From an uncultured Clostridia bacterium (lineage in GTDB: Bacteria; Bacillota; Clostridia; Oscillospirales; Acutalibacteraceae), in the NCBI GenBank assembly GCA_944380855.1, contig CALWIW010000015.1, positions 1-49,125 of the forward strand: a stretch of 49,125 nt of DNA, given 5' to 3'. Shown piece after piece: positions 9,746 through 41,461 of this stretch (position 1 is the first letter of the stretch; each line of letters begins with the position of its first letter). Both the position numbers and the translations under genes were made by a program. Under the pieces are notes generated by a model that saw nothing but the letters and a program-made list of their open reading frames with translations, ran no database searches and was not told the DNA's origin.

Positions 9746-11143
9746 TTATTTCTTTGACTTGTTAGGAAGTCTGTGCTTGCTGTCATAGTCCTTTGCCACT
9801 TTAACAACAACACCGCTCAATGCAAGCAGACCTACGATATTCGGAAGAACCATAAGTCCGTTAAACATATCGGACATATTCCAAACAAGGTCAACTTTAA
9901 GTGTTGAGCCCAAGATGATAAATATAACAACTATAGCACCGTAAATCTTAACCGCCTTTTTACCGAAAAGGTACTTAACGTTTTGTTCGCCGAAGAAATA
10001 CCAGCCGATAATTGTTGAAAAAGCAAAGAACAGCATACAGATAGCAATAAATATGTTACCAAAACTTCCGAAAGTGCTGTTAAATGCTACCTGTGCAAGC
10101 TCCGCACCGTCAAAATCTTTCCAAGCACCGCTTGAAACACTTGTAGAAATAATAACCAATGCTGTCATTGTAAGAACAATAAATGTATCAATGAAAACTC
10201 CAAGCATAGCGATTATACCCTGGTCACCCGGGTGGTCAACCTTTGCAAGAGCGTGGGCATGAGGAGTAGAACCCATACCTGCTTCATTGGAGAAAAGACC
10301 TCTTGCAACACCCTTGCTCATAGCCATCTGTATTGTAATACCCAAAGCACCGCCGGCAACTGCCTGAGGATTAAAAGCTCCCACAAAAATCTGGCGGAAA
10401 GCTTCCCCTACAAAGGAAAAATTAATTCCGAGAATAATAAGACAGCCAACAACATAGAACAAAGCCATAATCGGTACAATCTTTTCTGTAATCCATGCAA
10501 TTCTCTTTGCACCGCCGATAAATATCAAAGCGGCAAAAACAGCAACTGCAATTCCCACCGCAATAGGTGGAACATTAAATGCATTCTGGAAAGAAGCACC
10601 TATTGAATTTGACTGAACCATATTTCCCATAAAGCCAAGAGCAAGGATAATTGCTACAGAGAAGAATCCTGCAAGGAACTTTCCAAATTTCCCGTGGAAT
10701 GCCGCTCTTATGTAGTAAACAGGTCCACCCGTTACCTCTCCGTCAGAATGTGTTGTCTTAAATTTTTGAGCCAGCGTTGCTTCGCTGTAAATTGTCGCCA
10801 TTCCCAAAAAAGCACTAAGCCACATCCAAAAAATTGCACCGGGACCGCCCGCATGAATAGCGGTAGCCGCACCTGCAATATTTCCTGTTCCAACCTGAGC
10901 GGCAATTGCAGTGGTCAGTGCCTGAAAAGAACTCATACCATCCTTGCCTGCTTTTTTGCCGTTAAGAGAAAAACTGCCGAAAAGCTTTTTTATACCTGTT
11001 TTGAATTTTCTTACCTGGACAAATTTAAGTCTTAAAGTAAAGAAAATACCTGCTCCGCACAAGATGTAGATAAGAGCATAATCCCACAAATAAGAATTTA
11101 TAATCTTAACCACATCATTCACATAATTCATTACTGCGTCCAA
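9746..11143 (-). CDS. agcS: Sodium:alanine/glycine symporter (AGCS family)
   Basis: Multi-pass inner-membrane symporter that imports alanine or glycine with Na+. The protein (465 aa) shows family motifs TTAIAAQVGTGNIAGAATAI, GGPGAIFWMWLSAFLGMATI, MAMSKGVARGLFSNEAGMGS and AFSTIIGWYFFGEQN. The frame is open to 11320, but that extension runs through the riboswitch terminator. The best start is a TTG at 11143 (MDAVMNYVNDVV) about 10 nt after GGAG; the ATG at 11131 is too far from that site. A tandem glycine riboswitch and terminator lie upstream, which points to glycine as a substrate. The radical SAM gene follows closely. Confidence 0.93.
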   Translation of the reverse strand: MDAVMNYVNDVVKIINSYLWDYALIYILCGAGIFFTLRLKFVQVRKFKTGIKKLFGSFSLNGKKAGKDGMSSFQALTTAIAAQVGTGNIAGAATAIHAGGPGAIFWMWLSAFLGMATIYSEATLAQKFKTTHSDGEVTGGPVYYIRAAFHGKFGKFLAGFFSVAIILALGFMGNMVQSNSIGASFQNAFNVPPIAVGIAVAVFAALIFIGGAKRIAWITEKIVPIMALFYVVGCLIILGINFSFVGEAFRQIFVGAFNPQAVAGGALGITIQMAMSKGVARGLFSNEAGMGSTPHAHALAKVDHPGDQGIIAMLGVFIDTFIVLTMTALVIISTSVSSGAWKDFDGAELAQVAFNSTFGSFGNIFIAICMLFFAFSTIIGWYFFGEQNVKYLFGKKAVKIYGAIVVIFIILGSTLKVDLVWNMSDMFNGLMVLPNIVGLLALSGVVVKVAKDYDSKHRLPNKSKK

Positions 11144-11185
11144 AAAAACCACTCCTAAATAAATGTAATCATGTAAAACAATATA

Positions 11186-11224
11186 TAAAAAATAAAAAGA
11201 GCCTAACTCAAACGAGTTAAGCTC
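11186..11224 (-). terminator. Expression-platform terminator of the glycine riboswitch
   Basis: Minus-strand RNA: GAGCTTAACTC, loop GTTT, GAGTTAGGCTC (11214-11224 with 11199-11209; 11 bp with one G-U), then TTTTTATTTTTT. It sits between the aptamers and the agcS start, so riboswitch folding can decide read-through. Confidence 0.85.
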
Positions 11225-11269
11225 CGGAAAACAAAATAAATAGAATAGCAAAGCGACACAAATATCGTT

Positions 11270-11429
11270 CTCTGTCCTTTTGCCTGAGAGATTCGGAAAA
11301 AATCCTTGCACCTTCGGCACCCTTTAAAAGAGATTCTCCAGAGTTTACTCGGTTTTCAGTCCTATTTCCTTTCGGAAACTCCTGAGAGCATTACTCCTTC
11401 GGCAAGCACAAGGCTACTTTTCTGAAAAC
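11270..11429 (-). ncRNA. Tandem glycine riboswitch upstream of agcS
   Basis: Two consecutive glycine aptamers on the minus strand. Aptamer 1 (11352-11429) is closed by GTTTTCAG/CTGAAAAC and contains GCCGAAGGAG, GCTCTCAGG and ATAGGACTGA. Aptamer 2 (11270-11343) is closed by CTCTG/CAGAG and contains GTGCCGAAGGTGCAA, TCTCTCAGGCAAAAGGACAG. A linker of about 8 nt joins them. These are the known conserved segments of the glycine class, and the gene controlled is a fitting transporter. The rest of 11430-11576 shows no gene. Confidence 0.95.
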
Positions 11430-17341: not shown

Positions 17342-18430
17342 TTATTTATTTTCTTCAATAAGCTTTACAAACTCATCAAACAGCCACATAGTATCCAAAG
17401 GACCTGCACAGGCTTCCGGGTGAAACTGAACGGAAAATGCAGGAAACTCAGTATATCTTACACCCTCGCAGGAACCGTCGTTCATATTTATAAAGCTCAG
17501 CTTTCCGTGTTCCGGCAAGCTGCTGTCAACAACAGCATATCCGTGGTTCTGTGCCGTTATATAAACTCTTCCGCAGCTTAAATCCTTAACCGGCTGGTTT
17601 GCACCTCTGTGACCGTATTTAAGCTTCTCTGTCACTGCACCCTGAGAAAGAGCCAAAAGCTGATGTCCAAGACATATGCCGAAAATTGGTATTTTATACT
17701 GACAAACCTTTTTAAGCTCTTCAATTACGCCTTTGTTTTCCTGCGGATCTCCCGGTCCGTTTGAAAGCATAATACCGTCCGGGTTCAGGCTTTTAATATC
17801 CTCCGCCCTTGTATCTGCCGGAACAACAGTTACATTACAGCCACGCTGATTAAGACATCTTATAATGTTCTCCTTTGTACCGAAGTCCCAAAGAACCACG
17901 TTATACTTTGGATTATCGCTTTCATAAAGCTTTTTCTCTTTTCGTGACACTTTATTAACAACACCGGCACAGGTATATTCCTTGATTTTTTGAAGCTCTT
18001 CACTGCTGTAAGGAGGAGCTTTTTTTGTGAGCATTCCGTTCATAACTCCGTTTTTTCTTATAATTCTTGTAAGCTTTCTCGTGTCAATACCGCTCATGGC
18101 AGGAAGCTTTTCTCTCTTAAAATATTCGTCAAGCCTCTGTGTGCTTCTGTAATTTGACGGAGTTTCACACCAATCTCTAACCACATAACCCGAAAGCCAT
18201 GGCTTTTCGCTTTCAAAATCCTCTGGAATTACACCGTAGTTTCCTATAAGAGGAAAGGTCTGAACAAGTATCTGACCGCAGTAGCTTGGGTCGGTTATGC
18301 TTTCCAAATATCCGGTTATTGAAGTATTAAAGACAACTTCACCGTAAACGGTTTCAAAATCTCCGCCAAAACTGTCGCCTGTAAAATATTCTCCGTTTTC
18401 AAGTACAAGATAAATCTTTTCTTTTTTCAT
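17342..18430 (-). CDS. carA: Carbamoyl-phosphate synthase, small (glutamine amidotransferase) subunit
   Basis: Hydrolyses glutamine to supply ammonia for carbamoyl phosphate, the precursor of arginine and pyrimidines. The protein (362 aa) has the CarA N-terminal domain (YLVLENGEYFTGDSFGG, GEVVFNTSITGYLESITDPS) and the amidotransferase domain with Cys in FGICLGHQLLALS and the FHPEA motif. Ribosome binding site GGGGGAA precedes the ATG. The large subunit gene carB is not adjacent: dapF follows. First gene of carA-dapF-pyrG-dapL, read from a consensus promoter through an attenuator hairpin. Confidence 0.96.
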   Translation of the reverse strand: MKKEKIYLVLENGEYFTGDSFGGDFETVYGEVVFNTSITGYLESITDPSYCGQILVQTFPLIGNYGVIPEDFESEKPWLSGYVVRDWCETPSNYRSTQRLDEYFKREKLPAMSGIDTRKLTRIIRKNGVMNGMLTKKAPPYSSEELQKIKEYTCAGVVNKVSRKEKKLYESDNPKYNVVLWDFGTKENIIRCLNQRGCNVTVVPADTRAEDIKSLNPDGIMLSNGPGDPQENKGVIEELKKVCQYKIPIFGICLGHQLLALSQGAVTEKLKYGHRGANQPVKDLSCGRVYITAQNHGYAVVDSSLPEHGKLSFINMNDGSCEGVRYTEFPAFSVQFHPEACAGPLDTMWLFDEFVKLIEENK

Positions 18431-18524: not shown

Positions 18525-18607
18525 CGAAAAAAAGGCGTCTGCGACATAGTTCTCTGAGAAGAAAAGTCATTCTTTATCAGAAAACTAACTATATCGCAGA
18601 CGCCTTT
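18525..18607 (-). terminator. Promoter-proximal attenuator hairpin in the carA leader
   Basis: On the minus-strand RNA the 5' arm (18607-18587) starts AAAGGCGTCTGCGA and the 3' arm (18551-18531) ends GCAGACGCCTTT, a 21-bp stem with one G-U pair, followed by TTTT and CGGG. The 35-nt apical part holds a second stem (TCTGA/TCAGA) around AAGAATGACTTTTCTT. The hairpin base lies only about 7 nt after the predicted start site. Without an antitermination step most transcripts should stop here. The arm shares its AAAGGYGTY core with the asnA, glnA and gltB leaders. Confidence 0.85.
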
Positions 18608-18620
18608 GTCTGTTTGCATG

Positions 18621-18649
18621 ATTATATCACTTTGCAGGAAACTTGTCAA
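18621..18649 (-). promoter_or_regulatory. carA operon promoter (consensus)
   Basis: Minus strand TTGACA (18644-18649), 17-bp spacer, TATAAT (18621-18626): a perfect consensus match. Predicted start near 18614. The region between this and the asnA promoter (18650-18758) shows no gene. Confidence 0.88.
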
Positions 18650-18758
18650 TAAATTTCATACATAATCTTATTTTTTTATTTTTAATGAAAAAATAACCAT
18701 ATTTCCCCGATTATATATAGTTAATTGAAACAACAAATAAAAAACTTGCATTTTACTA

Positions 18759-18787
18759 TTGACAAACCAAAAGAGATGTATTATAAT
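18759..18787 (+). promoter_or_regulatory. asnA-glnN promoter (consensus)
   Basis: TTGACA (18759-18764), 17-bp spacer, TATAAT (18782-18787), again a perfect consensus match. Predicted start near 18794, about 10 nt before the attenuator hairpin. It diverges from the carA promoter. Confidence 0.88.
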
Positions 18788-18802
18788 TGCTCACGTAATC
18801 GG

Positions 18803-18837
18803 CGAAGGCGTCACAGAAATTCTGTGATGCCTTTTTC
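18803..18837 (+). terminator. Promoter-proximal attenuator hairpin in the asnA leader
   Basis: AAGGCGTCACAG, loop AAATT, CTGTGATGCCTT (18805-18833; 12 bp with one G-U), then TTTC. The stem starts about 10 nt after the predicted start, so a terminated transcript would be only about 40 nt. The 5' arm matches the AAAGGCGTC core of the carA hairpin. About 70 nt of leader remain before asnA. Confidence 0.85.
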
Positions 18838-18907: not shown

Positions 18908-19921
18908 ATGAGTAAAACAACATTTCCGACAAGTTACAGCACAAAAGAGCATCTGAGCGTTTTTGAAACACAGAAAGCAATTGAAGCAGTAAAAGATATT
19001 TTTTCAAATAAACTAAAAAACGCTTTAAATCTCACAAGAGTTTCCGCTCCGCTGTTTGTAGAACCGGAAACAGGACTTAACGACGACCTTAACGGAATTG
19101 AAAGACCTGTTGTATTCGATATTAAAGAAACCGGCAAGGACGCAGCCGTAGTTCATTCTCTTGCAAAATGGAAAAGATATGCCTTATATAAATACGGATT
19201 TGCACAGGGCAGCGGATTGTATACAGATATGAACGCCATAAGACGTGACGAGGAAATGGATAACCTACACTCCGTTTACGTTGACCAGTGGGACTGGGAA
19301 GCAATAATTCCTGACGGAAGACGTGACAAAGAATATTTAAAATCCACTGTTGAAAAAATAGTAAATGCAATCTGCGATACAGCCGATGAACTTCATAAAA
19401 TGTTCCCGGTGCTTACAGCTTCTTTCTCACATGATATAAGCTTTGTTACAACTCAAGAGCTTGAGGATATGTATCCCGACAAAACTCCCAGAGAAAGAGA
19501 AAACCTGTTTTTAAAAGAACACAAGACAGCTTTTATTATGGAAATCGGCGACCTTCTTAAATCCGGCGAAAAGCACGACGGCAGAGCTCCCGATTACGAC
19601 GACTGGAAATTAAACGGAGATATTTTCTTCTATAATGAAGTGCTTGACTGTGCTTTTGAGGTTTCAAGCATGGGCATAAGAGTTGACAGCAAATCCATGG
19701 ACGAACAGCTCACAAAAGCAGGCTGTGACGACAGAAGAGAGCTTCCGTTCCAAAAAATGGTTTTGGATAAAACTCTTCCTCTTACTATCGGCGGAGGTAT
19801 AGGACAGTCAAGATTGTGTATGCTACTGTTGGAAAAAGCTCACATCGGAGAGGTTCAGGTTTCCGTGTGGGACGAAGAAACAAAAAAAGCCGCCGAAAAA
19901 GCCGGTGCCATACTTTTATAA
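18908..19921 (+). CDS. asnA: Aspartate-ammonia ligase (asparagine synthetase A)
   Basis: Ammonia-dependent asparagine synthetase with a class II aminoacyl-tRNA-synthetase-like fold. The protein (337 aa) shows the AsnA pattern: ALNLTRVSAPLFVEPETGLN, AVVHSLAKWKRYALYKYGF, GLYTDMNAIRRDEEMDNLHS, VDQWDWE and the terminal GGGIGQSRLCMLLL. AAAGG lies upstream of the ATG; no T-box motif is visible in the leader. It is followed 70 bp later by glnN, so two ammonia-fixing ligases share one attenuated transcript. Confidence 0.97.
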   Translation: MSKTTFPTSYSTKEHLSVFETQKAIEAVKDIFSNKLKNALNLTRVSAPLFVEPETGLNDDLNGIERPVVFDIKETGKDAAVVHSLAKWKRYALYKYGFAQGSGLYTDMNAIRRDEEMDNLHSVYVDQWDWEAIIPDGRRDKEYLKSTVEKIVNAICDTADELHKMFPVLTASFSHDISFVTTQELEDMYPDKTPRERENLFLKEHKTAFIMEIGDLLKSGEKHDGRAPDYDDWKLNGDIFFYNEVLDCAFEVSSMGIRVDSKSMDEQLTKAGCDDRRELPFQKMVLDKTLPLTIGGGIGQSRLCMLLLEKAHIGEVQVSVWDEETKKAAEKAGAILL

Positions 19922-19991
19922 TATTTTTATTTACAAACAGAAATTTTTCTCACCGTTAAATACAGTCTACAATCTATAGGAGGAATTTGTC

Positions 19992-22109
19992 ATGAACAAT
20001 GTACCAAAGGAAAATAAAAGCGACTATATCCCGGAACTTTTCGGAAGTATGGTTTTTAATGATAAAGCAATGAAAGAAAGACTTCCGAAAGAAACATACA
20101 AGGCTCTGAAAAAAACCATGGAGCTTGGCAAGAGCCTTGACAGAACCATTGCCAATGTTGTAGCCAACGCCATGAAGGATTGGGCAGTGGAAAAGGGTGC
20201 AACACATTTTACACACTGGTTCCAGCCAATGACCGGTTACACCGCCGAAAAGCACGACAGTTTTATTACGCCGGAAAGCGACACTTCTGTTATTATGGAA
20301 TTCAGCGGAAAAGAGCTTGTAAAAGGCGAGCCTGACGCTTCCTCTTTCCCCTCCGGCGGTCTTCGTGCAACCTTTGAGGCAAGAGGCTATACCGCATGGG
20401 ACCCCTCAGCTTACGCCTTTATTAAGGACAATACCCTTTGTATCCCAACCGTTTTCTGCTCCTACGGCGGCGAAGCATTGGATAAAAAGACTCCGCTCCT
20501 CCGTTCAATGGAGGTTATAAACAAGCAGGCATTAAGAATTTTAAGACTTTTCGGAAACACAGATGCCACCCGTGTAATCACCACGGTAGGTCCGGAACAG
20601 GAGTATTTCCTTATAGACAAAGAATATTACTCAAAGCGTGAAGATTTAATGCTTTGCGGAAGAACTCTTTTCGGCGAGCGTCCTCCTAAGGGTCAGGAGC
20701 TTGAAGACCATTACTTCGGAACAATTAAGCCGAGAGTAAAAGCTTTCATGAAAGATTTGGATATAGAGCTTTGGAAGCTGGGTGTATTTGCTAAAACCGA
20801 GCATAACGAGGTAGCCCCGGCACAGCATGAGCTTGCACCTATTTTCACAAACACAAATATGGCAACCGACCAAAACCAGCTTACAATGGAAATTATTAAA
20901 AAAGTTGCTCAAAAGCACGGCCTTGTATGCCTGCTCCACGAAAAGCCCTTTGAGGGAATCAACGGAAGCGGCAAGCATAACAACTGGTCTTTGTCCACCA
21001 ATACAGGCGTAAACCTTTTAGAGCCGGGGGACTCACCTGCTGAAAACGCACAGTTTCTGCTTTTCCTTTCCTCAGTAATTAAAGCTGTTGACGAGTATCA
21101 GGATTTGCTGAGAGTTTCCGTAGCAAGTGCCGGAAACGACCACCGCCTGGGTGCCAACGAGGCTCCCCCTGCGATAGTTTCAATGTTTTTAGGAGATGAG
21201 CTTTCCGAGGTTCTCAATGCTATTGAAAACGACTGCGAATACAACGGCAAAGACAAGGTTGAAATGAAAGTAGGAGTTCATATTCTCCCGCGTTTTCCAA
21301 AGGACACCACAGACAGAAACAGAACCTCTCCCTTTGCATTTACGGGCAACAAATTTGAGTTCCGTATGCTGGGTTCAGGCGACTCAATCGCAGGTCCTAA
21401 TATCGTTCTCAATACAATTGTTGCCGAAGAGCTTTCCGGCTTTGCTGACAGACTTGAAAAGGCTGATGATTTCAACAGTGTTCTCCACGACATCATCAAA
21501 GAAGTAATGAAAGACCATAAGAGAATTATCTTCAACGGAAACAACTACTCTCAGGAATGGGTCGAAGAAGCCGAAAAAAGAGGCCTTCTCAATTTGAGAA
21601 CAACCGCAGACGCTCTTCCTACCTTTATCCAACAGAAAAACATTGACCTTTTCACAAAACACAAAATTTTCACTAAGGACGAGATGATTTCAAGGTACGA
21701 AATTCTTTCGGAGTTATATCAGAAGAAAATCACCATAGAAGCTTTAACCATGGGTGAAATGACAAGAAAAGAAATTATCCCTGCTGTTTTGGAGTATGTT
21801 GACTTCCTTGTAAAATCAGTTGCCGCTAAAAAAGCTCTGTATGCGGAACTGCCTGTTTCATCTGAAGAGGAAACAATAAAAGAGCTTTCCTCCTGTGTTG
21901 AAAGTATGTTTACACTTTCAAATCAGCTTGAAGAGGATTTGTCACAAAGCAAAAAAGAAACAGACGTTCAAGCTCTTTCACAGTTCTTTGCCTGCACAGT
22001 GCTTCCCCACATGGAACTGCTCAGAAAAAACGCAGACAAAGCAGAACATTTTATGCCTAAGAAATGCTGGCCTTTCCCCTCCTATGCAGAGCTTCTGAAT
22101 AAAATCTAA
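19992..22109 (+). CDS. glnN: Glutamine synthetase type III
   Basis: Large-subunit (705 aa) GSIII, an ATP-dependent ammonia-fixing enzyme found in Bacteroides, cyanobacteria and many clostridia. Seen: ELFGSMVFNDKAMKERLPKE, THWFQPMTGYTAEKHDSFI, SFPSGGLRATFEARGYTAWD, VGPEQEYFLID, EVAPAQHELAPIF and INGSGKHNNWS, all characteristic. The ATG at 19992 follows TAGGAGGAATTTGTC. No promoter or terminator is evident between asnA and glnN. A second, short type I enzyme lies at 39.6 kb, so the organism has at least two glutamine synthetases. Confidence 0.97.
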   Translation: MNNVPKENKSDYIPELFGSMVFNDKAMKERLPKETYKALKKTMELGKSLDRTIANVVANAMKDWAVEKGATHFTHWFQPMTGYTAEKHDSFITPESDTSVIMEFSGKELVKGEPDASSFPSGGLRATFEARGYTAWDPSAYAFIKDNTLCIPTVFCSYGGEALDKKTPLLRSMEVINKQALRILRLFGNTDATRVITTVGPEQEYFLIDKEYYSKREDLMLCGRTLFGERPPKGQELEDHYFGTIKPRVKAFMKDLDIELWKLGVFAKTEHNEVAPAQHELAPIFTNTNMATDQNQLTMEIIKKVAQKHGLVCLLHEKPFEGINGSGKHNNWSLSTNTGVNLLEPGDSPAENAQFLLFLSSVIKAVDEYQDLLRVSVASAGNDHRLGANEAPPAIVSMFLGDELSEVLNAIENDCEYNGKDKVEMKVGVHILPRFPKDTTDRNRTSPFAFTGNKFEFRMLGSGDSIAGPNIVLNTIVAEELSGFADRLEKADDFNSVLHDIIKEVMKDHKRIIFNGNNYSQEWVEEAEKRGLLNLRTTADALPTFIQQKNIDLFTKHKIFTKDEMISRYEILSELYQKKITIEALTMGEMTRKEIIPAVLEYVDFLVKSVAAKKALYAELPVSSEEETIKELSSCVESMFTLSNQLEEDLSQSKKETDVQALSQFFACTVLPHMELLRKNADKAEHFMPKKCWPFPSYAELLNKI

Positions 22110-34697: not shown

Positions 34698-37600
34698 TCA
34701 GTTGTTTGCTATGGAATAGAATGCCTCGATCTCAGCCTGTTCTCTTGACATTCCCTTTTCTTCCATTTTTCCTATTGCTTTCATCATTTTACTGTAATCG
34801 TTTGGTATAATCTTTTTAAACTTAGGAAGGTATCCCTCGTAATCATTCAAAATCTTTTTGCCTATCTGTGAGCCTGTTTCCCTTACGTGATTTTCAATAA
34901 GATTTTTAAGCTCTGCAATATCGTGCTTTTCCTTAACGGCAGTCATTGAAACCATCTCTTTGTTAAGTTTGAGATAAAGTGAATGGTCTTCGTCAAGCAC
35001 ATAGGCAATACCGCCGCTCATACCTGCGGCAAAGTTTTTACCGGTTTTGCCCAAAATTACCGCTCTGCCGCCTGTCATATATTCACAGCCGTGGTCGCCC
35101 ACACCCTCGACAACCGCAAAAGCTCCCGAATTTCTTACGCAGAATCTTTCACCGGCTATACCGTTTATATATGCTTCTCCACTTGTTGCTCCGTAAAGGG
35201 CTACGTTTCCTATAATAATATTTTCCTCTGCCTTAAACTTACTCTCCTTAGGCGGCTTTACAACAAGCTTTCCGCCGGAAAGTCCTTTTCCGAAATAGTC
35301 GTTGCTGTCGCCCTCGAGAACCATTGTAAGTCCCTTTGGAATAAATGCTCCGAAAGACTGGCCTCCGCCGCCGTGACAGTTTACAACATATGTGTCGTCA
35401 GGCAATGTGTTCTTATATTTTTCTGTAATCTCAGAACCAAAGATACTTCCCAAGGTTCTGTTGATACTTGTTACCTTTATATCTATTTTATCGGGAGTTC
35501 CGTTTTTAATTGACCTTTTGAATTTCTTGCAAATAACGCTTTCGTCAATAGTTTCTTCAAGCTTAAAGTCGTAAACGTCCTCCGGGTTAAAATGCACGGC
35601 ATTTTCCTCGCCTTTGTAAAGAATTGCGGAAAGGTCAACCTTTCTGGATTTTTCACTGCTCATATTTTCTTTTAACTTTATAAGGTCTGTGCGTCCCACA
35701 AGATCTTCGACCTTTCTAATGCCCAGCTTTGCCATAAGCTCTCTCAGCTCTTCTGCGATAAATGTCATAAAGTTTACAACATATTCAGGCTTGCCGCAGA
35801 AACGCTTTCTAAGCTCCGGATTTTGTGTGGCAATTCCCACAGGACAGGTGTCTTTGTTGCAAACTCTCATCATAAGACAGCCCATTGTGATAAGCGGAGC
35901 TGTGGCAAAACCAAATTCCTCAGCACCCAAAATAGCGGCAATTGCCACATCTCTTCCGCTCATAAGCTTTCCGTCAGCTTCAAGGACAACCTTTGATCTC
36001 AAGCCGTTTTGAATAAGTGTCTGGTGAGCTTCCGCCAAACCAAGCTCCCAAGGCAAACCTGCGTTATGAATTGAAGTCTGTGGAGCGGCACCGGTTCCTC
36101 CGTCATATCCGGAGATAAGCACAACCTGTGCTCCTGCCTTTGCAACACCTGCGGCAATTGTTCCTACACCTGTTTCCGAAACAAGCTTTACAGAAATTCT
36201 CGCCTTTCTGTTTGCATTTTTAAGGTCATAAATAAGCTGAGCCAAATCCTCAATGGAATAAATATCGTGATGAGGAGGCGGTGAAATAAGTGACACACCC
36301 GGGGTTGAATATCTTGTCTTTGCAATCCACGGATAAACCTTTTTGCCCGGAAGATGTCCGCCCTCGCCCGGTTTTGCACCCTGTGCCATTTTAATCTGTA
36401 TTTCCTTTGCACTTACAAGGTACTCACTGGTAACTCCGAAACGTCCGGAAGCAACCTGCTTAATGGCACTTGAACGCTCGGTTCCAAGTCTTTCAGGTTC
36501 TTCGCCGCCCTCGCCGGAATTTGACTTTCCTTTCAGCATATTCATGGCGATTGCCATACACTCGTGGGCTTCTTTTGAAATAGAGCCGTAAGACATAGCA
36601 CCTGTTTTAAATCTCTTTACAATCTCCGAAACCGGCTCAACCTCATCTATTGAGATTTCTCCGTTTTCAGGGAAGTCAAACTCCATAAGACCTCTAAGGT
36701 TAAACGGTGTTTCAGTGTTGTCGATTTTATCTGTATAAACTTTGAACTTCTCGTAATTTCCTGTCATTGCGGCTTCTCTCAGGGCAATTATTGTTTCTGC
36801 ACTGTAGAGGTGTTCCTCTGTATCGCTGCCGCCTCTGAACTTGTGAAGTCCAAGACTGTCCAGTGTTGTGTCAACGCCAAGTCCCAAGGGGTCAAAGGCA
36901 TGGTTGTGTCTGTACTCCACATCGTCCTCTATATCTTTAAGACCGATACCGCCCACACGGCTTACTGTGTTGGTGAAGTACTTGTCAATAACGCTTTTTT
37001 CAATTCCCACAGCTTCAAAAATCTGTGAGGACTGGTAGGACTGCAAAGTGGAAATACCCATTTTTGCGGCAACCTTTACAACTCCGTGAAGCACTGCAAG
37101 GTTATAATCCCTTATAGCCGTATGATAATCCTTATCGAGCATTCCCTTTTCAATACATTCGGTAATGCTTTCATGGGCAAGGTATGGATTTATGGCTCTT
37201 GCACCGTAGCCTAACAAAGCGGCAAAGTGATGAACATTTCTCGGCTCTGCACTTTCAAGAATAATGGAGATTGCAGTTCTTTTCTTTGTTCTTACAAGAT
37301 ACTGTTCCATTGCGGATACAGCCAAAAGTGACGGTATAGCAACGTGATTTTCGTCAACTCCCCTGTCAGACAAAATCATAATGTTTGCACCGTTTTTATA
37401 AGCTCTGTCGCAGGTTATGAAAAGATGCTCTAAAGCCTTTTCAAGAGAGGTGTTTTTATAATAAAGCATGGATAAAGTAGCAACCTTAAAGCCCGGCTTG
37501 TTCATGCTTCTTATTTTCATAAGGTCAACGGCGGTAAGTATCGGGTTTTTAATGCTTACAACCGTACAGTTTTCCGGCTTTTCCTCCAAAAGGTTTCCGT

Positions 37601-39221
37601 CAGAACCCACGTAAACGGTGGTATCGGTTACTATTTCCTCTCTGATAGCGTCTATGGGCGGATTTGTAACCTGAGCGAAAAGCTGTTTAAAATAGTTAAA
37701 TAAAAGCTGGTGCTTATCGGAAAGTACAGCCAAAGGCGTGTCAATACCCATTGAAGATGTTGGCTCTATTCCGTCTTTAGCCATTGGAAGAACCATATTT
37801 TTTATATCCTCATAGGTATAACCGAAAGCCTTGTAAAGGCGGTCTCTCACCTGCTGGCTGTAGTTTTCAACCCTTTTATTTGGGATAGGCAAATCCTCAA
37901 GCTGAACCAAATGCATATCAATCCATTCGCCGTATGGGTTTCTTTGAGCGTAATACTCCTTGCACTCGTCGTCGGAAATAAGTCTGCCCTCTTTTGTATC
38001 AACCAAAAGCATTTTGCCCGGCTGTAAACGGGACTTCAAAAGGATTTTTTCCTCTGGAATATCAAGAACGCCAACCTCGGAAGCCAAAATAAGCTCGTCA
38101 TCCTCGGTAATATAATATCTTGAGGGTCTTAAACCGTTTCTGTCAAGGATTGCACCCACCTTTTCACCGTCAGAGAAGAGAATGGAAGCAGGGCCGTCCC
38201 ATGGCTCCATCATTGTTGAGTAGTAGCAGTACAAATCCCTTTTGCTTCTGCTCATCATCTGGTCTTTGCTCCAAGGCTCGGGAATTGTCATCATCATAGC
38301 CAGAGGAAGCTCAACGCCGTTCATTACAAGGAATTCTATTGTGTTGTCAAGCATTGCAGAGTCAGAACCGCAGGCGTTTACAACAGGGAAAATTTTGTCC
38401 ATGCCCTCTTCCGGCATAACCGGTGAAAACATTGTTTCCTCACGGGCCAGCATTCTATCCACGTTGCCCCTTATTGTATTGATTTCTCCGTTGTGGAGGA
38501 TAAATCTGTTTGGGTGTGCTCTCTCCCAGCTTGGGTTTGTGTTTGTGGAAAATCTTGAGTGAACCATTGCTATTGCGGATTGATATTCTTCCCTCTGTAA
38601 ATCAGGATAAAAAAGTCTTAATTGATTTACAAGGAACATTCCTTTATAGACCACTGTTCTTGAGGACAGTGAAACCACATATGTGTTGTCATTGCTCTGT
38701 TCAAAAACTCTTCTCACAATATAGAGCCTTCTGTCAAACTCAATACCTCTTTTGGTATTTTCCGGACGTTTGATAAAGCACTGCATGATAAAAGGCATAC
38801 AGTCCCTTGCTCTGTTTCCCAGAGTCTCGGGACATACCGGAACCTCTCTCCAGCCTAAAAACTCCAAGCCTTCCTTAACAGCGATAACTTCAAACATCTT
38901 TTTAGCCTGATTTCTCTCAAGCTTTTCCTGCGGAAAGAAAAACATTCCCACGCCGTAATCTCCCTTTTCCGGAAGATTGATTCCAAGGCTTTTACATTCA
39001 GGTTCAAAGAAACTATGGGAAACATTCACCATAATGCCCACGCCGTCTCCGGTTTCTCCTGAAGCGTCCTTGCCGGCTCTGTGTTCCAGTCTTTCAACAA
39101 TCTTTAAAGCGTCGTCAACTATTTTGTGTGACTCTTTTCCTTTTATATTTACAACCGCACCGATACCGCAGGCATCATGTTCAAAACGTGAGTCGTAAAG
39201 AGTCTGACCTGCTTTTGCCAT
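34698..39221 (-). CDS. gltB: Glutamate synthase, large subunit
   Basis: Converts glutamine plus 2-oxoglutarate to two glutamates. The protein (1507 aa) starts MAKAGQTLYDSRFEHDACGI, with the amidotransferase nucleophile Cys18 exposed after processing. The central and FMN domains include SGEGGEEPERLG, MAQGAKPGEGGHLPG and VLISGYDGGTGAAPQTS, and the [3Fe-4S] ligands lie in RVCNKDTCPVGIATQ. The GXGXG structural domain closes it. The ATG at 39221 lies 8 nt after GAGG; the frame is open to 39338, but that extension is the leader hairpin. Divergent from glnA, with attenuators on both sides. Confidence 0.97.
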   Translation of the reverse strand: MAKAGQTLYDSRFEHDACGIGAVVNIKGKESHKIVDDALKIVERLEHRAGKDASGETGDGVGIMVNVSHSFFEPECKSLGINLPEKGDYGVGMFFFPQEKLERNQAKKMFEVIAVKEGLEFLGWREVPVCPETLGNRARDCMPFIMQCFIKRPENTKRGIEFDRRLYIVRRVFEQSNDNTYVVSLSSRTVVYKGMFLVNQLRLFYPDLQREEYQSAIAMVHSRFSTNTNPSWERAHPNRFILHNGEINTIRGNVDRMLAREETMFSPVMPEEGMDKIFPVVNACGSDSAMLDNTIEFLVMNGVELPLAMMMTIPEPWSKDQMMSRSKRDLYCYYSTMMEPWDGPASILFSDGEKVGAILDRNGLRPSRYYITEDDELILASEVGVLDIPEEKILLKSRLQPGKMLLVDTKEGRLISDDECKEYYAQRNPYGEWIDMHLVQLEDLPIPNKRVENYSQQVRDRLYKAFGYTYEDIKNMVLPMAKDGIEPTSSMGIDTPLAVLSDKHQLLFNYFKQLFAQVTNPPIDAIREEIVTDTTVYVGSDGNLLEEKPENCTVVSIKNPILTAVDLMKIRSMNKPGFKVATLSMLYYKNTSLEKALEHLFITCDRAYKNGANIMILSDRGVDENHVAIPSLLAVSAMEQYLVRTKKRTAISIILESAEPRNVHHFAALLGYGARAINPYLAHESITECIEKGMLDKDYHTAIRDYNLAVLHGVVKVAAKMGISTLQSYQSSQIFEAVGIEKSVIDKYFTNTVSRVGGIGLKDIEDDVEYRHNHAFDPLGLGVDTTLDSLGLHKFRGGSDTEEHLYSAETIIALREAAMTGNYEKFKVYTDKIDNTETPFNLRGLMEFDFPENGEISIDEVEPVSEIVKRFKTGAMSYGSISKEAHECMAIAMNMLKGKSNSGEGGEEPERLGTERSSAIKQVASGRFGVTSEYLVSAKEIQIKMAQGAKPGEGGHLPGKKVYPWIAKTRYSTPGVSLISPPPHHDIYSIEDLAQLIYDLKNANRKARISVKLVSETGVGTIAAGVAKAGAQVVLISGYDGGTGAAPQTSIHNAGLPWELGLAEAHQTLIQNGLRSKVVLEADGKLMSGRDVAIAAILGAEEFGFATAPLITMGCLMMRVCNKDTCPVGIATQNPELRKRFCGKPEYVVNFMTFIAEELRELMAKLGIRKVEDLVGRTDLIKLKENMSSEKSRKVDLSAILYKGEENAVHFNPEDVYDFKLEETIDESVICKKFKRSIKNGTPDKIDIKVTSINRTLGSIFGSEITEKYKNTLPDDTYVVNCHGGGGQSFGAFIPKGLTMVLEGDSNDYFGKGLSGGKLVVKPPKESKFKAEENIIIGNVALYGATSGEAYINGIAGERFCVRNSGAFAVVEGVGDHGCEYMTGGRAVILGKTGKNFAAGMSGGIAYVLDEDHSLYLKLNKEMVSMTAVKEKHDIAELKNLIENHVRETGSQIGKKILNDYEGYLPKFKKIIPNDYSKMMKAIGKMEEKGMSREQAEIEAFYSIANN

Positions 39222-39269
39222 AATAACAACCTCATTTCTCGTGCATTTTCTAAAGAATTGTAATTTCAC

Positions 39270-39329
39270 TTTTAAAAACAAAAAACGGCAAAGGTATACA
39301 GATATTATCTGCGACACCTTTGCCGTTTT
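39270..39329 (-). terminator. Promoter-proximal attenuator hairpin in the gltB leader
   Basis: Minus-strand RNA: AAAACGGCAAAGGT (39329-39316) pairs perfectly with ACCTTTGCCGTTTT (39295-39282), 14 bp. Above an internal loop sits a CAGAT/ATCTG stem. T-tract TTTTTTGTTTTT follows. The base is about 3 nt after the predicted start. The 5' arm contains CAAAGGTGTCGCAGA, matching the AAAGGYGTY core of the carA, asnA and glnA hairpins. Confidence 0.85.
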
Positions 39330-39338
39330 ACTTTGCAT

Positions 39339-39367
39339 ATTTTACTCCATTATCCCCTGTTTGTCAA
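39339..39367 (-). promoter_or_regulatory. gltBD promoter
   Basis: Minus strand TTGACA (39362-39367), 17-bp spacer, TAAAAT (39339-39344). Predicted start near 39332, at the very base of the attenuator hairpin. It diverges from the glnA promoter 60 bp away. Confidence 0.85.
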
Positions 39368-39426
39368 TATAAAAATAAGAATTATGAATAATTTCATTTT
39401 TAATCCTGCATACAGCAGAATAATCC

Positions 39427-39454
39427 TTGACTTTTCCACTGCCCGATGTATAAT
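39427..39454 (+). promoter_or_regulatory. glnA operon promoter
   Basis: TTGACT (39427-39432), 16-bp spacer, TATAAT (39449-39454). Predicted start near 39461. The divergent spacer 39368-39426 holds CTGCATACAG but no clear operator. Confidence 0.82.
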
Positions 39455-39474
39455 AGTAATAATAGAAGTTGAGC

Positions 39475-39530
39475 AAAGGCGTTCATACAAAGGGGTTTTT
39501 ATGCCCTTTTTTATGAGCGTTTTCTTTTTA
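39475..39530 (+). terminator. Promoter-proximal attenuator hairpin in the glnA leader
   Basis: Outer stem AAGGCGTTCATA (39476-39487) with TATGAGCGTTTT (39512-39523), 12 bp with three G-U pairs; inner stem AAAGGG (39489-39494) with CCCTTT (39504-39509); then CTTTTT. The base lies about 14 nt after the predicted start. Shares the AAAGGCGTY core with the other three leaders. A further small hairpin GTTTGT/ACAAAC (39534-39552) follows before the glnA ribosome binding site. Confidence 0.75.
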
Positions 39531-39624: not shown

Positions 39625-40830
39625 ATGTATTCATTAGAAGAAGTAAAAACATTTGTGCAGGAAGAGGATGTAAAGTTTATAAGACTGGCTTTTTGCGACA
39701 AAAACGGAGTTCAAAAAAATATAGCTATTATGCCAGATGAACTTGAAAGGGCTTTTTCTCACGGAATTTCTTTCGACGCCTCGGCAATTAAAGGCTTCGG
39801 CGATGAAGTAAAATCAGATTTGTTTCTTCACCCCGACCCGTCAACTCTTGCTATTCTGCCATGGCGTCCCCAAAGCGGCAGGGTTATCAGAATGTTCTGT
39901 GATATATCCTATCCCGACGGAACGCCTTTTGAAAAGGACAGCAGATTTATTTTAAAAAAAGCAATAAAAGACGCAAAGAAAATGGGTATCGAGTGCTATT
40001 TCGGGGCGGAATTTGAATTTTATCTTTTCCATACCGATGAAAAAGGAAATCCAACAGACACTCCTTTTGACAAAGCCGGATACATGGATATAGCTCCTCT
40101 GGACAAGGGCGAAAATGTGAGAAGAGAAATATGCTTTACTCTTTTAGATATGGGAATCATGCCGGAAAGCTCTCATCACGAGGAGGGTCCCGGTCAAAAT
40201 GAAATAGATTTTAGATACAGCGACGCTTTAACTGCCGCCGACAACGCAACCACATTTAAATCAGTGGTTGAGGCAATCGCCATGGGAAACGGTCTTTACG
40301 CCGACTTCTCACCAAAGCCCTTAAAAGACAAAAGCGGAAACGGTATGCATATAAATATGTCCATAAGAAACGAAAACAACAACGATTACTGGGAAAGCTT
40401 TATGGCCGGCGTTTTGGAGCACGTGGAAGAAATGACAGCATTTTTGAACCCCTGCAAGGATTCCTATCTCCGTTTAGGAGAGAAAAAGGCTCCCAAATAC
40501 ATCACATGGTCGCCTGAAAACCGTTCTCAGCTTATCAGAATTCCTGCGGCTCACGGCGAGTACAGAAGAATTGAGCTTCGTTCCCCCGATCCAATGACAA
40601 ATCCATATATAGCCTACACCCTTTTAATTAACGCAGGACTTGACGGAATAAGAAGAAATTTAAATCCCGGAATACCGGAAAATATAAACCTCTTTACTGC
40701 GGAAAAAGCGGTTACCGATAAGCTTAAAGCTTTGCCTTATTCTCTTGAGCAAGCGGTATCAATTGCCAAAAACAGCAGCTGGCTTAAAAGAATTCTGCCT
40801 CCCTGTTACTTTGAATTTGATAACAATTAA
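39625..40830 (+). CDS. glnA: Glutamine synthetase type I, short form
   Basis: ATP-dependent glutamine synthetase (401 aa). Active-site segments are present: FGAEFEFYLF, HHEEGPGQNEIDF, GNGMHINMS, ENRSQLIRIPA and RRIELRSPDPMTNPY. Typical bacterial type I enzymes have about 440-470 residues; this one stops soon after LPYSLEQAVSIA with a divergent end (SSWLKRILPPCYFEF), so the C-terminal helix that ends normal subunits is missing. There is no adenylylation loop, as expected for this group. RBS CGGAGG lies 10-15 nt upstream. An ANTAR gene follows after 40 bp. Catalysis is likely, but the short tail may change oligomer contacts or feedback control. Confidence 0.94.
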   Translation: MYSLEEVKTFVQEEDVKFIRLAFCDKNGVQKNIAIMPDELERAFSHGISFDASAIKGFGDEVKSDLFLHPDPSTLAILPWRPQSGRVIRMFCDISYPDGTPFEKDSRFILKKAIKDAKKMGIECYFGAEFEFYLFHTDEKGNPTDTPFDKAGYMDIAPLDKGENVRREICFTLLDMGIMPESSHHEEGPGQNEIDFRYSDALTAADNATTFKSVVEAIAMGNGLYADFSPKPLKDKSGNGMHINMSIRNENNNDYWESFMAGVLEHVEEMTAFLNPCKDSYLRLGEKKAPKYITWSPENRSQLIRIPAAHGEYRRIELRSPDPMTNPYIAYTLLINAGLDGIRRNLNPGIPENINLFTAEKAVTDKLKALPYSLEQAVSIAKNSSWLKRILPPCYFEFDNN

Positions 40831-40870: not shown

Positions 40871-41461
40871 GTGTTTGCCGGATCGGAATCTATGAGTGCA
40901 CTGGTGGTATCATCATCTCAAAAGACCTGCGAATCGATAAAATGTCTTCTTCAAAAAAATCGAATTTCACAAATATATACAGGTAACAGTGCCGGAGAAG
41001 CCAGAAGGCTGCTTTCTGATTTTCCCGTGGATATACTTTTAATAAATACACCTCTTTCCGATGAATATGGAACTCAGTTTGCTTTGGACGTAGCAAACAA
41101 CAGCGGCACAGTAGTTCTTTTGTTTGTAAAAAGTGAAAATTATGAAGCTGTTTCATATAAAGTTGAATCAGCGGGAGTATTAACTCTCCCCCGACCAGTT
41201 TCTCCCCAGTTTTTTTCGCAATCCTTAAAACTTGTTATTGCTACACGTGCAAAGGTTAAGAACCTATATGAGAAAAACTCCGACTTACAGGAAAAAATGA
41301 AAGAGGTAAGGATTTTAAACAGGGCAAAGTGGCTCTTGGTAGACAAAAAGAAAATGAGCGAACCTGACGCCCATAGATACATCGAAAAAAACGCAATGGA
41401 CAGATGTGTAAAGAAAAAGGTTATCGCTTTGGAAATAATAGACGCTTTAGACACGGAATAA
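40871..41461 (+). CDS. nitR: ANTAR-domain RNA-binding antiterminator with degenerate receiver (NitR-like)
   Basis: Protein of 196 aa with a CheY-like N-terminal domain, a coiled-coil linker (about 125-148, VKNLYEKNSDLQEKMKEVR) and a C-terminal ANTAR domain (about 150-196: RAKWLLVDKKKMSEPDAHRY, IEKNAMDRCVKKKVIA). ANTAR proteins bind paired RNA hairpins and prevent termination. The receiver lacks the phosphorylation set: the N-terminal acid pair is Ser-Ser (ALVVSSSQ), the acceptor Asp is Asn59 (ILLINTPLS) and the conserved Lys is Arg (LPRPVS), so it is probably not a phospho-switch. Start is GTG at 40871 after AAGGGTGTG. It lies between glnA and purF; a glnA-nitR-gltAB cluster with the same kind of protein is known in Clostridium saccharobutylicum. 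Confidence 0.88.
   Translation: MFAGSESMSALVVSSSQKTCESIKCLLQKNRISQIYTGNSAGEARRLLSDFPVDILLINTPLSDEYGTQFALDVANNSGTVVLLFVKSENYEAVSYKVESAGVLTLPRPVSPQFFSQSLKLVIATRAKVKNLYEKNSDLQEKMKEVRILNRAKWLLVDKKKMSEPDAHRYIEKNAMDRCVKKKVIALEIIDALDTE

Follow-up and report, generated by a model that had tools for sequence, protein, structure and literature searches.

The leaders of four nitrogen-related operons in the DNA analysed here, a stretch of 49,125 nt from an uncultured Clostridia bacterium of the Acutalibacteraceae (hereafter the window), are probably transcription attenuators of one regulon governed by a NitR-like ANTAR protein, each with a single hexaloop hairpin at its 5' end. Computed support comes from the promoters, two mutually exclusive folds, a covarying stem, co-occurrence of leaders and ANTAR genes, the nature of the target genes and, in most leaders, the lack of a second hexaloop. 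Binding by the protein, antitermination, the signal and induction in nitrogen shortage are predicted from these sequence data.

In the proposed mechanism, RNA polymerase would start a few bases before the hexaloop. In unbound RNA, the loop and 3' half of the hexaloop would pair with RNA downstream, and the resulting terminator would stop transcription before the gene. An active ANTAR protein, likely the product of the gene behind glnA, would hold the hexaloop closed as it emerges, leaving the terminator without its 5' arm and allowing the operon to be read. The single 5'-end hexaloop would thus take the role of the published P2 hairpin (antiterminator), with no P1 hairpin (recruitment) upstream. 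Such a recruitment hairpin would not be needed because the target hairpin is the first thing that the polymerase makes. By a narrow preference, we extend this view to many Clostridia, in which nitrogen assimilation and much glutamine-dependent biosynthesis would be controlled by one-hexaloop, phosphorylation-independent, glnA-linked ANTAR antitermination devoid of a recruitment hairpin.

Four leaders with two exclusive folds

The preliminary description of the region between the divergent gltB and glnA genes, drawn from the sequence alone, reported a sigma-A promoter, a hairpin close to the predicted start and a T tract on either side, and these elements are all present (Table 1). The two promoters lie back to back between the genes, each matching 11 of 12 consensus bases; over 3 kb, the promoter scan returned fewer sites (4) than expected from shuffled sequence (6.2). 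With the transcription start set 7 nt past the -10 element, the base of the terminator hairpin lies about 3 nt from the 5' end of the RNA in gltB and 14-15 nt from it in glnA, close to the 3 and 14 nt given earlier. The same layout of promoter, hairpin and terminator recurs between the divergent carA and asnA-glnN operons (18527-18836), and the leaders are about 60-100 nt long. Folding of the gltB, glnA, carA and asnA leaders, compared with 200 shuffles each, confirmed the hairpin followed by a T tract in every case: none of the 200 shuffles folded as well as the native sequence, and the four terminators are much stabler than shuffled sequence (z -4.9 to -9.4). At gltB and glnA the terminators rest on this folding, since the terminator scan was limited to loops of at most 8 nt and listed neither hairpin. 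The gltB frame remains open across its leader (34698-39338, minus strand), back to an ATG upstream of the predicted transcription start, which is probably a coincidence.

Table 1. Positions of the promoters, hexaloops, terminators and genes discussed, numbered along the window.
Feature	Position	Strand	Support
gltB sigma-A-type promoter TTGACA-17-TAAAAT	39339..39367	-	11/12 consensus bases
gltB hexaloop hairpin CGGC[AAAGGT]GTCG	39312..39325	-	sequence; R2 28.0 bits (hold-out model)
gltB intrinsic terminator and T tract, bases shared with hexaloop	39274..39329	-	-29.4 kcal/mol, z -9.0
gltB, glutamate synthase large subunit (start predicted at 39221)	34698..39221	-	PF00310, PF01645, PF04898, PF01493
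glnA sigma-A-type promoter TTGACT-16-TATAAT	39427..39454	+	11/12 consensus bases
glnA hexaloop hairpin TGAGC[AAAGGC]GTTCA	39470..39485	+	sequence; R2 22.6 bits
glnA intrinsic terminator and T tract, overlapping hexaloop	39476..39529	+	-24.3 kcal/mol, z -4.9
glnA, glutamine synthetase	39625..40830	+	PF00120, PF03951
ANTAR protein (NitR-like), pseudo-receiver and ANTAR domain	40871..41461	+	Pfam, profile, model
carA hexaloop CAGAC[AAAGGC]GTCTG, loop 18602-18607	18592..18617	-	R2 24.4 bits
carA intrinsic terminator and T tract	18527..18607	-	-43.9 kcal/mol, z -9.4
carA, carbamoyl-phosphate synthase small chain; then dapF, pyrG	17342..18430	-	Pfam
asnA hexaloop variant GGC[GAAGGC]GTC, loop 18804-18809	18801..18812	+	R1 20.3 bits; R2 no match
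asnA intrinsic terminator and T tract	18804..18836	+	-22.2 kcal/mol, z -5.2
asnA and glnN (type III glutamine synthetase)	18908..22109	+	PF03590, PF12437

The core shared by the leaders had been described as a common 5' arm, and its sequences stand as written (CAAAGGTGTCGCAG in gltB on the minus strand, CAAAGGCGTTCATA in glnA). It is better read as an ANTAR hexaloop, that is, a stem of 3-5 bp closing a loop of the form AANGGY, whose first base is A (A1) and whose fourth is G (G4). The 14 bases common to carA, glnA, gltB and asnA correspond to the six-base loop plus its 3' stem, and A1 and G4 are the published ANTAR signature in the accounts available (PMC3369931, PMC8934654). In gltB, glnA and carA the six-base loop has A1 and G4 and its stem measures 3 bp or more; the claim of one core in four leaders therefore holds exactly for these three, the asnA leader having the variant GAAGGC, with G1. 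This hexaloop nature had been overlooked in the preliminary description, as had the lack of a second hairpin and the ANTAR nitrogen regulons already published. The orthologous asnA leader of a genome from the same genus (G001) reads AAAGGC and preserves the terminator stem through one two-sided and two one-sided changes. With G where A is otherwise fixed, the asnA leader provides a natural experiment on the A1 rule.

Because the terminator takes its 5' arm from the loop and 3' half of the hexaloop, the two folds exclude each other, and this overlap is the one known from ANTAR targets. Calculated energies are -1.6 to -4.9 kcal/mol for the hexaloops and -22 to -44 kcal/mol for the terminators; read-through would thus require something to hold the hexaloop.

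Two RNA models of the leader were used. R1, built from 19 sequences including the four of the window and two of G001, scores the four leaders at 20.3-27.8 bits, with the next match in the window at 12.3. R2 is a hold-out model made of 89 rows from relatives, the window and same-genus sequences being excluded; its training set left out 10 doubtful matches, the rows of G000 (the source genome) and G001 and one near-duplicate (89 of 90 rows used). R2, the fairer test of whether the shared core could be due to chance, ranks gltB, carA and glnA first in the window, at 22.6-28.0 bits against 12.7 for the next match. The R2 scan of the window did not recover the asnA leader, whose loop starts with G.

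One hexaloop or two

Dual hexaloops define the ANTAR targets described so far. As presented in the published texts available, the dimer must contact both hexaloops in turn to prevent termination, a single hexaloop being the minimal binding site (PMC8934654), and in Enterococcus faecalis deletion of P1 or alteration of the linker harms induction (PMC3369931). Searches across relatives gave 151 distinct matches, 108 of them scored with a terminator; the other 43 were scored by the script as lacking one, including the glnA leader of G084 and a few other real leaders. All 108 have A1 and G4, having been selected by a model trained on such loops. Sixty-two of the 108 are promoter-linked (at least 10 of 12 consensus bases), and their loop starts 5-33 nt (median 10) past the predicted start. 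None of these 62 leaders, only 16 of which have room for a minimal hairpin there, has an upstream hexaloop inside the RNA, and a looser test, in which the stem may reach before the start, finds one in a single leader.

Downstream, 56 of the 62 promoter-linked leaders have no second hexaloop at a distance of 0-25 nt. The remaining six, with a second A1/G4 hexaloop, compare with 1.6 expected from simple shuffling; anywhere before the scored T tract, the count is 12 of 62 against 3.5 expected. This excess is real. The majority of these second loops depart from AANGGY, and several belong to the terminator stem or to the next tandem unit. Within 200 nt, a further hexaloop-like unit occurs in 21 of the 62 leaders (about 15 convincing by eye), so some leaders may act as widely spaced pairs. 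Both units are R1 matches in seven tandem pairs (G002, G032, G067, G099, L176, L179 and L197), the second unit always being terminator-scored and the first in five of the seven. Judging from these terminator scores, most tandem pairs look like attenuators in series, and two are possibly widely spaced pairs.

These counts bear on the alternative that survives best, namely that the leaders are ordinary dual-hexaloop targets whose second hairpin is either weak or far, as with a unit 50-120 nt downstream or the AAAGGG loop of glnA. We consider this unlikely. It draws on the 21 leaders with a further unit, on the two tandem pairs whose first unit has no scored terminator of its own (G067 and the glnN leader of G099) and on the glnA leader of the window, which, as in the other genome of the genus, has a second A1/G4 loop, AAAGGG, 14 nt on, closed by about two pairs, which could be a weak second hairpin. 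However, linkers are described as 2-25 nt (PMC8164766) and a longer one as harmful to antitermination (PMC3369931, PMC8934654), whereas nine in ten of the promoter-linked leaders (the 56 above) have no second hexaloop in that range, a dual scan of the window finds none, including at gltB, carA and asnA, and both units carry scored terminators in most tandem pairs.

Other scans point to P1 as the hairpin that the one-hexaloop leaders lack. A similar scanner with linkers of up to 14 nt found five dual motifs, counted by presence in the locus, in four of seven eut loci of the same class, against one in the reversed control; among the promoter-linked leaders it found a dual motif in 4 of 62. One eut example reads GTAC[AATGAA]GTAC ... 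AGGC[AAAGAA]GCC. In four of the five eut motifs the second hairpin, AGGC[AAxGxx]GC, resembles the nitrogen hexaloop, so the missing one is P1. The earlier dual scan yielded three motifs in 80 ANTAR loci and none in 102 kb around second, non-NitR ANTAR genes, which were replaced as a control by the eut loci. Searches of the open-access literature brought up no account of single-hexaloop ANTAR leaders.

The ANTAR protein and its co-occurrence with leaders

The only ANTAR gene found in the genome by Pfam search lies directly behind glnA and encodes a protein with receiver-like and ANTAR domains (model pLDDT 91). Its profile matches the putative antiterminator 1s8n (E 5e-23) and 6wsh (E 2e-11), the latter presumably EutV. 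In the profile alignment, the phosphate-accepting D of the EutV motif LVLMDIQMP falls on the column of N59, which is N in 27 of 28 relatives and D in one. The receiver therefore lacks the aspartate of a phosphorylated EutV-type REC-ANTAR regulator, and activation is probably not by a kinase. The sequence would rather fit a phosphorylation-independent signal, possibly glutamine, 2-oxoglutarate or contact with glutamine synthetase, the last of these partners being guessed from the order of the genes. Among 64 genomes of the family with a close ANTAR homologue (E up to 3e-15), 50 have glnA upstream of it at a distance of no more than 2.5 kb. Nearly all named loci whose ANTAR proteins are closest bear labels such as Clostridia, Oscillospiraceae or Lachnospiraceae.

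Adjacency to glnA, together with the glutamate synthase genes, makes the protein NitR-like. NitR of Clostridium saccharobutylicum is described as an antiterminator that induces the GS/GOGAT genes in nitrogen limitation (Stutz et al., 2007, cited in PMC6316151), and the likeness, an ANTAR protein at GS/GOGAT genes, is drawn from that description. The EutV/EutW system of the E. faecalis eut genes likewise combines an A1/G4 hexaloop on a short stem overlapping the 5' arm of the terminator with a C-terminal ANTAR domain on a receiver-like protein. As described, however, eut leaders need both P1 and P2 and a phosphorylated receiver (PMC3369931, PMC8934654), whereas here there is one 5'-end hexaloop and N in place of D.

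Leaders and ANTAR genes occur together across genomes. In the family (120 genomes), 52 leaders remained after filters, in 32 genomes, 30 of which have an ANTAR gene, against 77 of 120 overall (Fisher p 2e-5). As to the two exceptions, a contig end cuts the ANTAR gene of G084, and in G005 only 51 bases separate the leader from the end of a contig, which hides its neighbour. The family count excludes 12 terminator-scored matches inside open frames without a promoter, of which five (G080:C134, G002:29720, G061, G003:66052 and G102:78368) seem genuine leaders judging from the genes downstream; it keeps three doubtful ones (G000:C32, G021 and G090), and without G021 and G090 it becomes 28 of 30 genomes.

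In the class (196 genomes), 23 of 25 genomes with strong R2 matches (E 5e-4 or better, unfiltered for terminators) have an ANTAR gene, compared with 105 of 196 overall (Fisher p 2e-5), four of the genomes counted (G067, G032, G102 and G122) having had rows in the R2 training set. Among the 24 of 41 listed class matches that were read, those of G263:C33, G214, G123, G182, G286 and G292 were not leader-like; without the genomes concerned (G263 being retained through another match), the count is 19 of 20. The class exceptions are G123, whose match looks like coding sequence, and G156. The latter genome, 97% complete and 6% contaminated, has tandem leaders (G156:C65, L258/L275) and no ANTAR match, owing either to assembly loss or to use of the leaders by another protein. 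The majority of genomes with an ANTAR gene, 47 of 77 in the family and 82 of 105 in the class, yielded no leader at these cut-offs, by which weak matches are lost. Leaders also occur in cultured relatives, for example Claveliimonas monacensis DSM 108991 (L195) and Aminicella lysinilytica DSM 28287 (L221). Three genomes of genus g147 (G276, G142 and G309; L263, L264 and L265) share a near-identical leader, AAGAC[AAAGGC]GTCTTAGAGA, with a weak T tract.

This co-occurrence speaks against a second alternative, which we regard as very improbable: a protein-free attenuator or riboswitch-like leader that responds to a metabolite such as glutamine or to polymerase speed, next to which the ANTAR gene would be incidental. 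The leaders are indeed short and close to their promoters, and the genes share glutamine chemistry, as such a leader might have it. However, the core spans only about 16 conserved nt and fits the known ANTAR loop rule, and no Rfam family was found at gathering score at any of the four leaders in a scan of the whole window, nor at E up to 1 at those of gltB and glnA.

Stem conservation, target genes and known systems

The reading of the core as a mere common terminator arm was rejected, as the upstream arm still pairs with the 3' half. In 29 of the 108 terminator-scored matches, the upstream stem arm contributes no more than one base to the scored terminator; pairing enters the score of the model that selected this set, and some of the folded stretches started inside the arm, which by itself depresses the count. 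Because of these two limits, a model-free stem test was run on 76 of 80 named relative loci, the four omitted being contigs already used. Where CAANGGYG occurs with a matching terminator (27 cases in 20 loci, not all independent because two locus pairs are nearly identical), pairs 3, 4 and 5 form in 96, 96 and 74%, against 76, 44 and 43% with shuffled arms; reversed sequence gave one such case against 27. In the 307 cases without a terminator there is little excess (47, 47 and 38% vs 42, 39 and 37% shuffled). The 89-row alignment has standard pairs in 97.3% of its pair cells and two-sided changes at three pairs, a result that leans towards the stem because the rows were picked with R1.

That the hairpins are plain strong terminators or products of chance, with no regulation, is hardly credible: intrinsic terminators are common and simple pattern matches do occur elsewhere in the window, but the leader hairpins each stand between a promoter and a start, at four operons with linked functions, are all retained in the same-genus genome G001, and have a stem that pairs around a conserved loop, for which a bare terminator has no need.

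Specificity requires more than the core. The simple pattern CAAAGGNGT is enriched in the window (8 sites vs 2.0 expected; none of 100 shuffles reaches 8) and yet unspecific, with four of the eight sites outside the leaders and two of the other four in glnA. In the source genome R1, which scored 150 of 813 first-look candidates, gave 23 matches at E up to 10, and of the 19 outside the four leaders none has promoter, hexaloop and terminator together, as judged by eye from -60 to +100 nt. Among these R1 matches, equally good ones at unrelated genes, which would have told against a regulon, are therefore absent as complete leaders; by score, however, one stands out (G000:C32:3968-3993, L065/L144), at 23.9 bits with R1 and 30.2 with R2, antisense within a long open frame. 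This frame reads like a V-type ATPase subunit. Given this match, model score alone was rejected as proof: the 26-base R2 model is unspecific by itself, and promoter and terminator were therefore also required. Another match (L084, G000:C17:16158) has a strong promoter, TTGACA...TATAAT, followed by GGCAAAGGC without a matching stem.

The genes behind the leaders are consistent with a regulon centred on nitrogen. In relatives, leaders precede genes similar to those of the window, namely glnA, glnN, gltB, pyrG and dapF-pyrG; carA lies behind a leader in G001 and behind pyrG in G102, and asnA behind a leader in G001, with a partial match in G056. Pfam scans of 10 and then 5 proteins, giving one to a few examples per gene, confirmed in the first set gdhA, a stand-alone glutamate synthase GATase domain, asnB, purC, a GatA-type amidase, amtB with a P-II domain, pyrG, purA, NAD synthase and an Fe-S oxidoreductase subunit upstream of a GltD-like gene. 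The second set added guaA (G126), a second purC (G232), a second amtB with P-II (L177), dapF and glnN. Other downstream genes were judged by similarity or by their first residues. Of the further members anticipated in the preliminary description, amtB, asnB and guaA thus stand behind leaders in relatives, but amtB was not found in the source genome itself, which is 86% complete.

Taken with their association with ANTAR genes, these targets support, with the caveats given, the earlier interpretation of an RNA-level nitrogen regulon under the ANTAR protein, an interpretation that published work had in large part anticipated. That ANTAR proteins control nitrogen operons, among them the GS/GOGAT genes through NitR, is already known (PMC3369931, PMC6316151), and ANTAR nitrogen regulons have been predicted in Desulfotomaculum reducens, D. 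acetoxidans and Pelobacter carbinolicus (Ramesh et al., 2012, PMC3369931). There, too, a single RNA motif recurs at numerous nitrogen operons, those for glutamate and glutamine synthesis among them, but the regulons were found, as described, with a two-hairpin model whose definition most leaders reported here would fail. Since most lack this one defining feature of the dual-hexaloop family (Ramesh et al., 2012; Mehta and Ramesh, 2021), we file them as a variant. Search models, insofar as they are described, assume two hexaloops, so such leaders would be missed.

Three points are new here: the lone hexaloop at the 5' end, the pseudo-receiver and the range of genes in the proposed regulon. Beyond the GS/GOGAT genes of NitR, this regulon would take in four operons in the window, among them carA and asnA-glnN, and relatives add genes for pyrimidines, purines, asparagine, NAD and ammonium transport. 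If one hexaloop suffices, the ANTAR mechanism will need revision and the ANTAR regulons of Clostridia would exceed the current catalogue. The second hairpin would then be an elaboration of systems of the eut, nas and ami type, not a general requirement, and a regulator could be named for the glutamine, asparagine, pyrimidine and purine genes of many uncultured Clostridia.

Pfam assignments in the window further include a GATase/phosphoribosyltransferase protein and a member of the NAD synthase family. Outside the ANTAR set, a glycine riboswitch (RF00504, 64.8 bits) lies at 11262-11351 on the minus strand and overlaps the 5' end of an open reading frame at 9746-11320 on the same strand.
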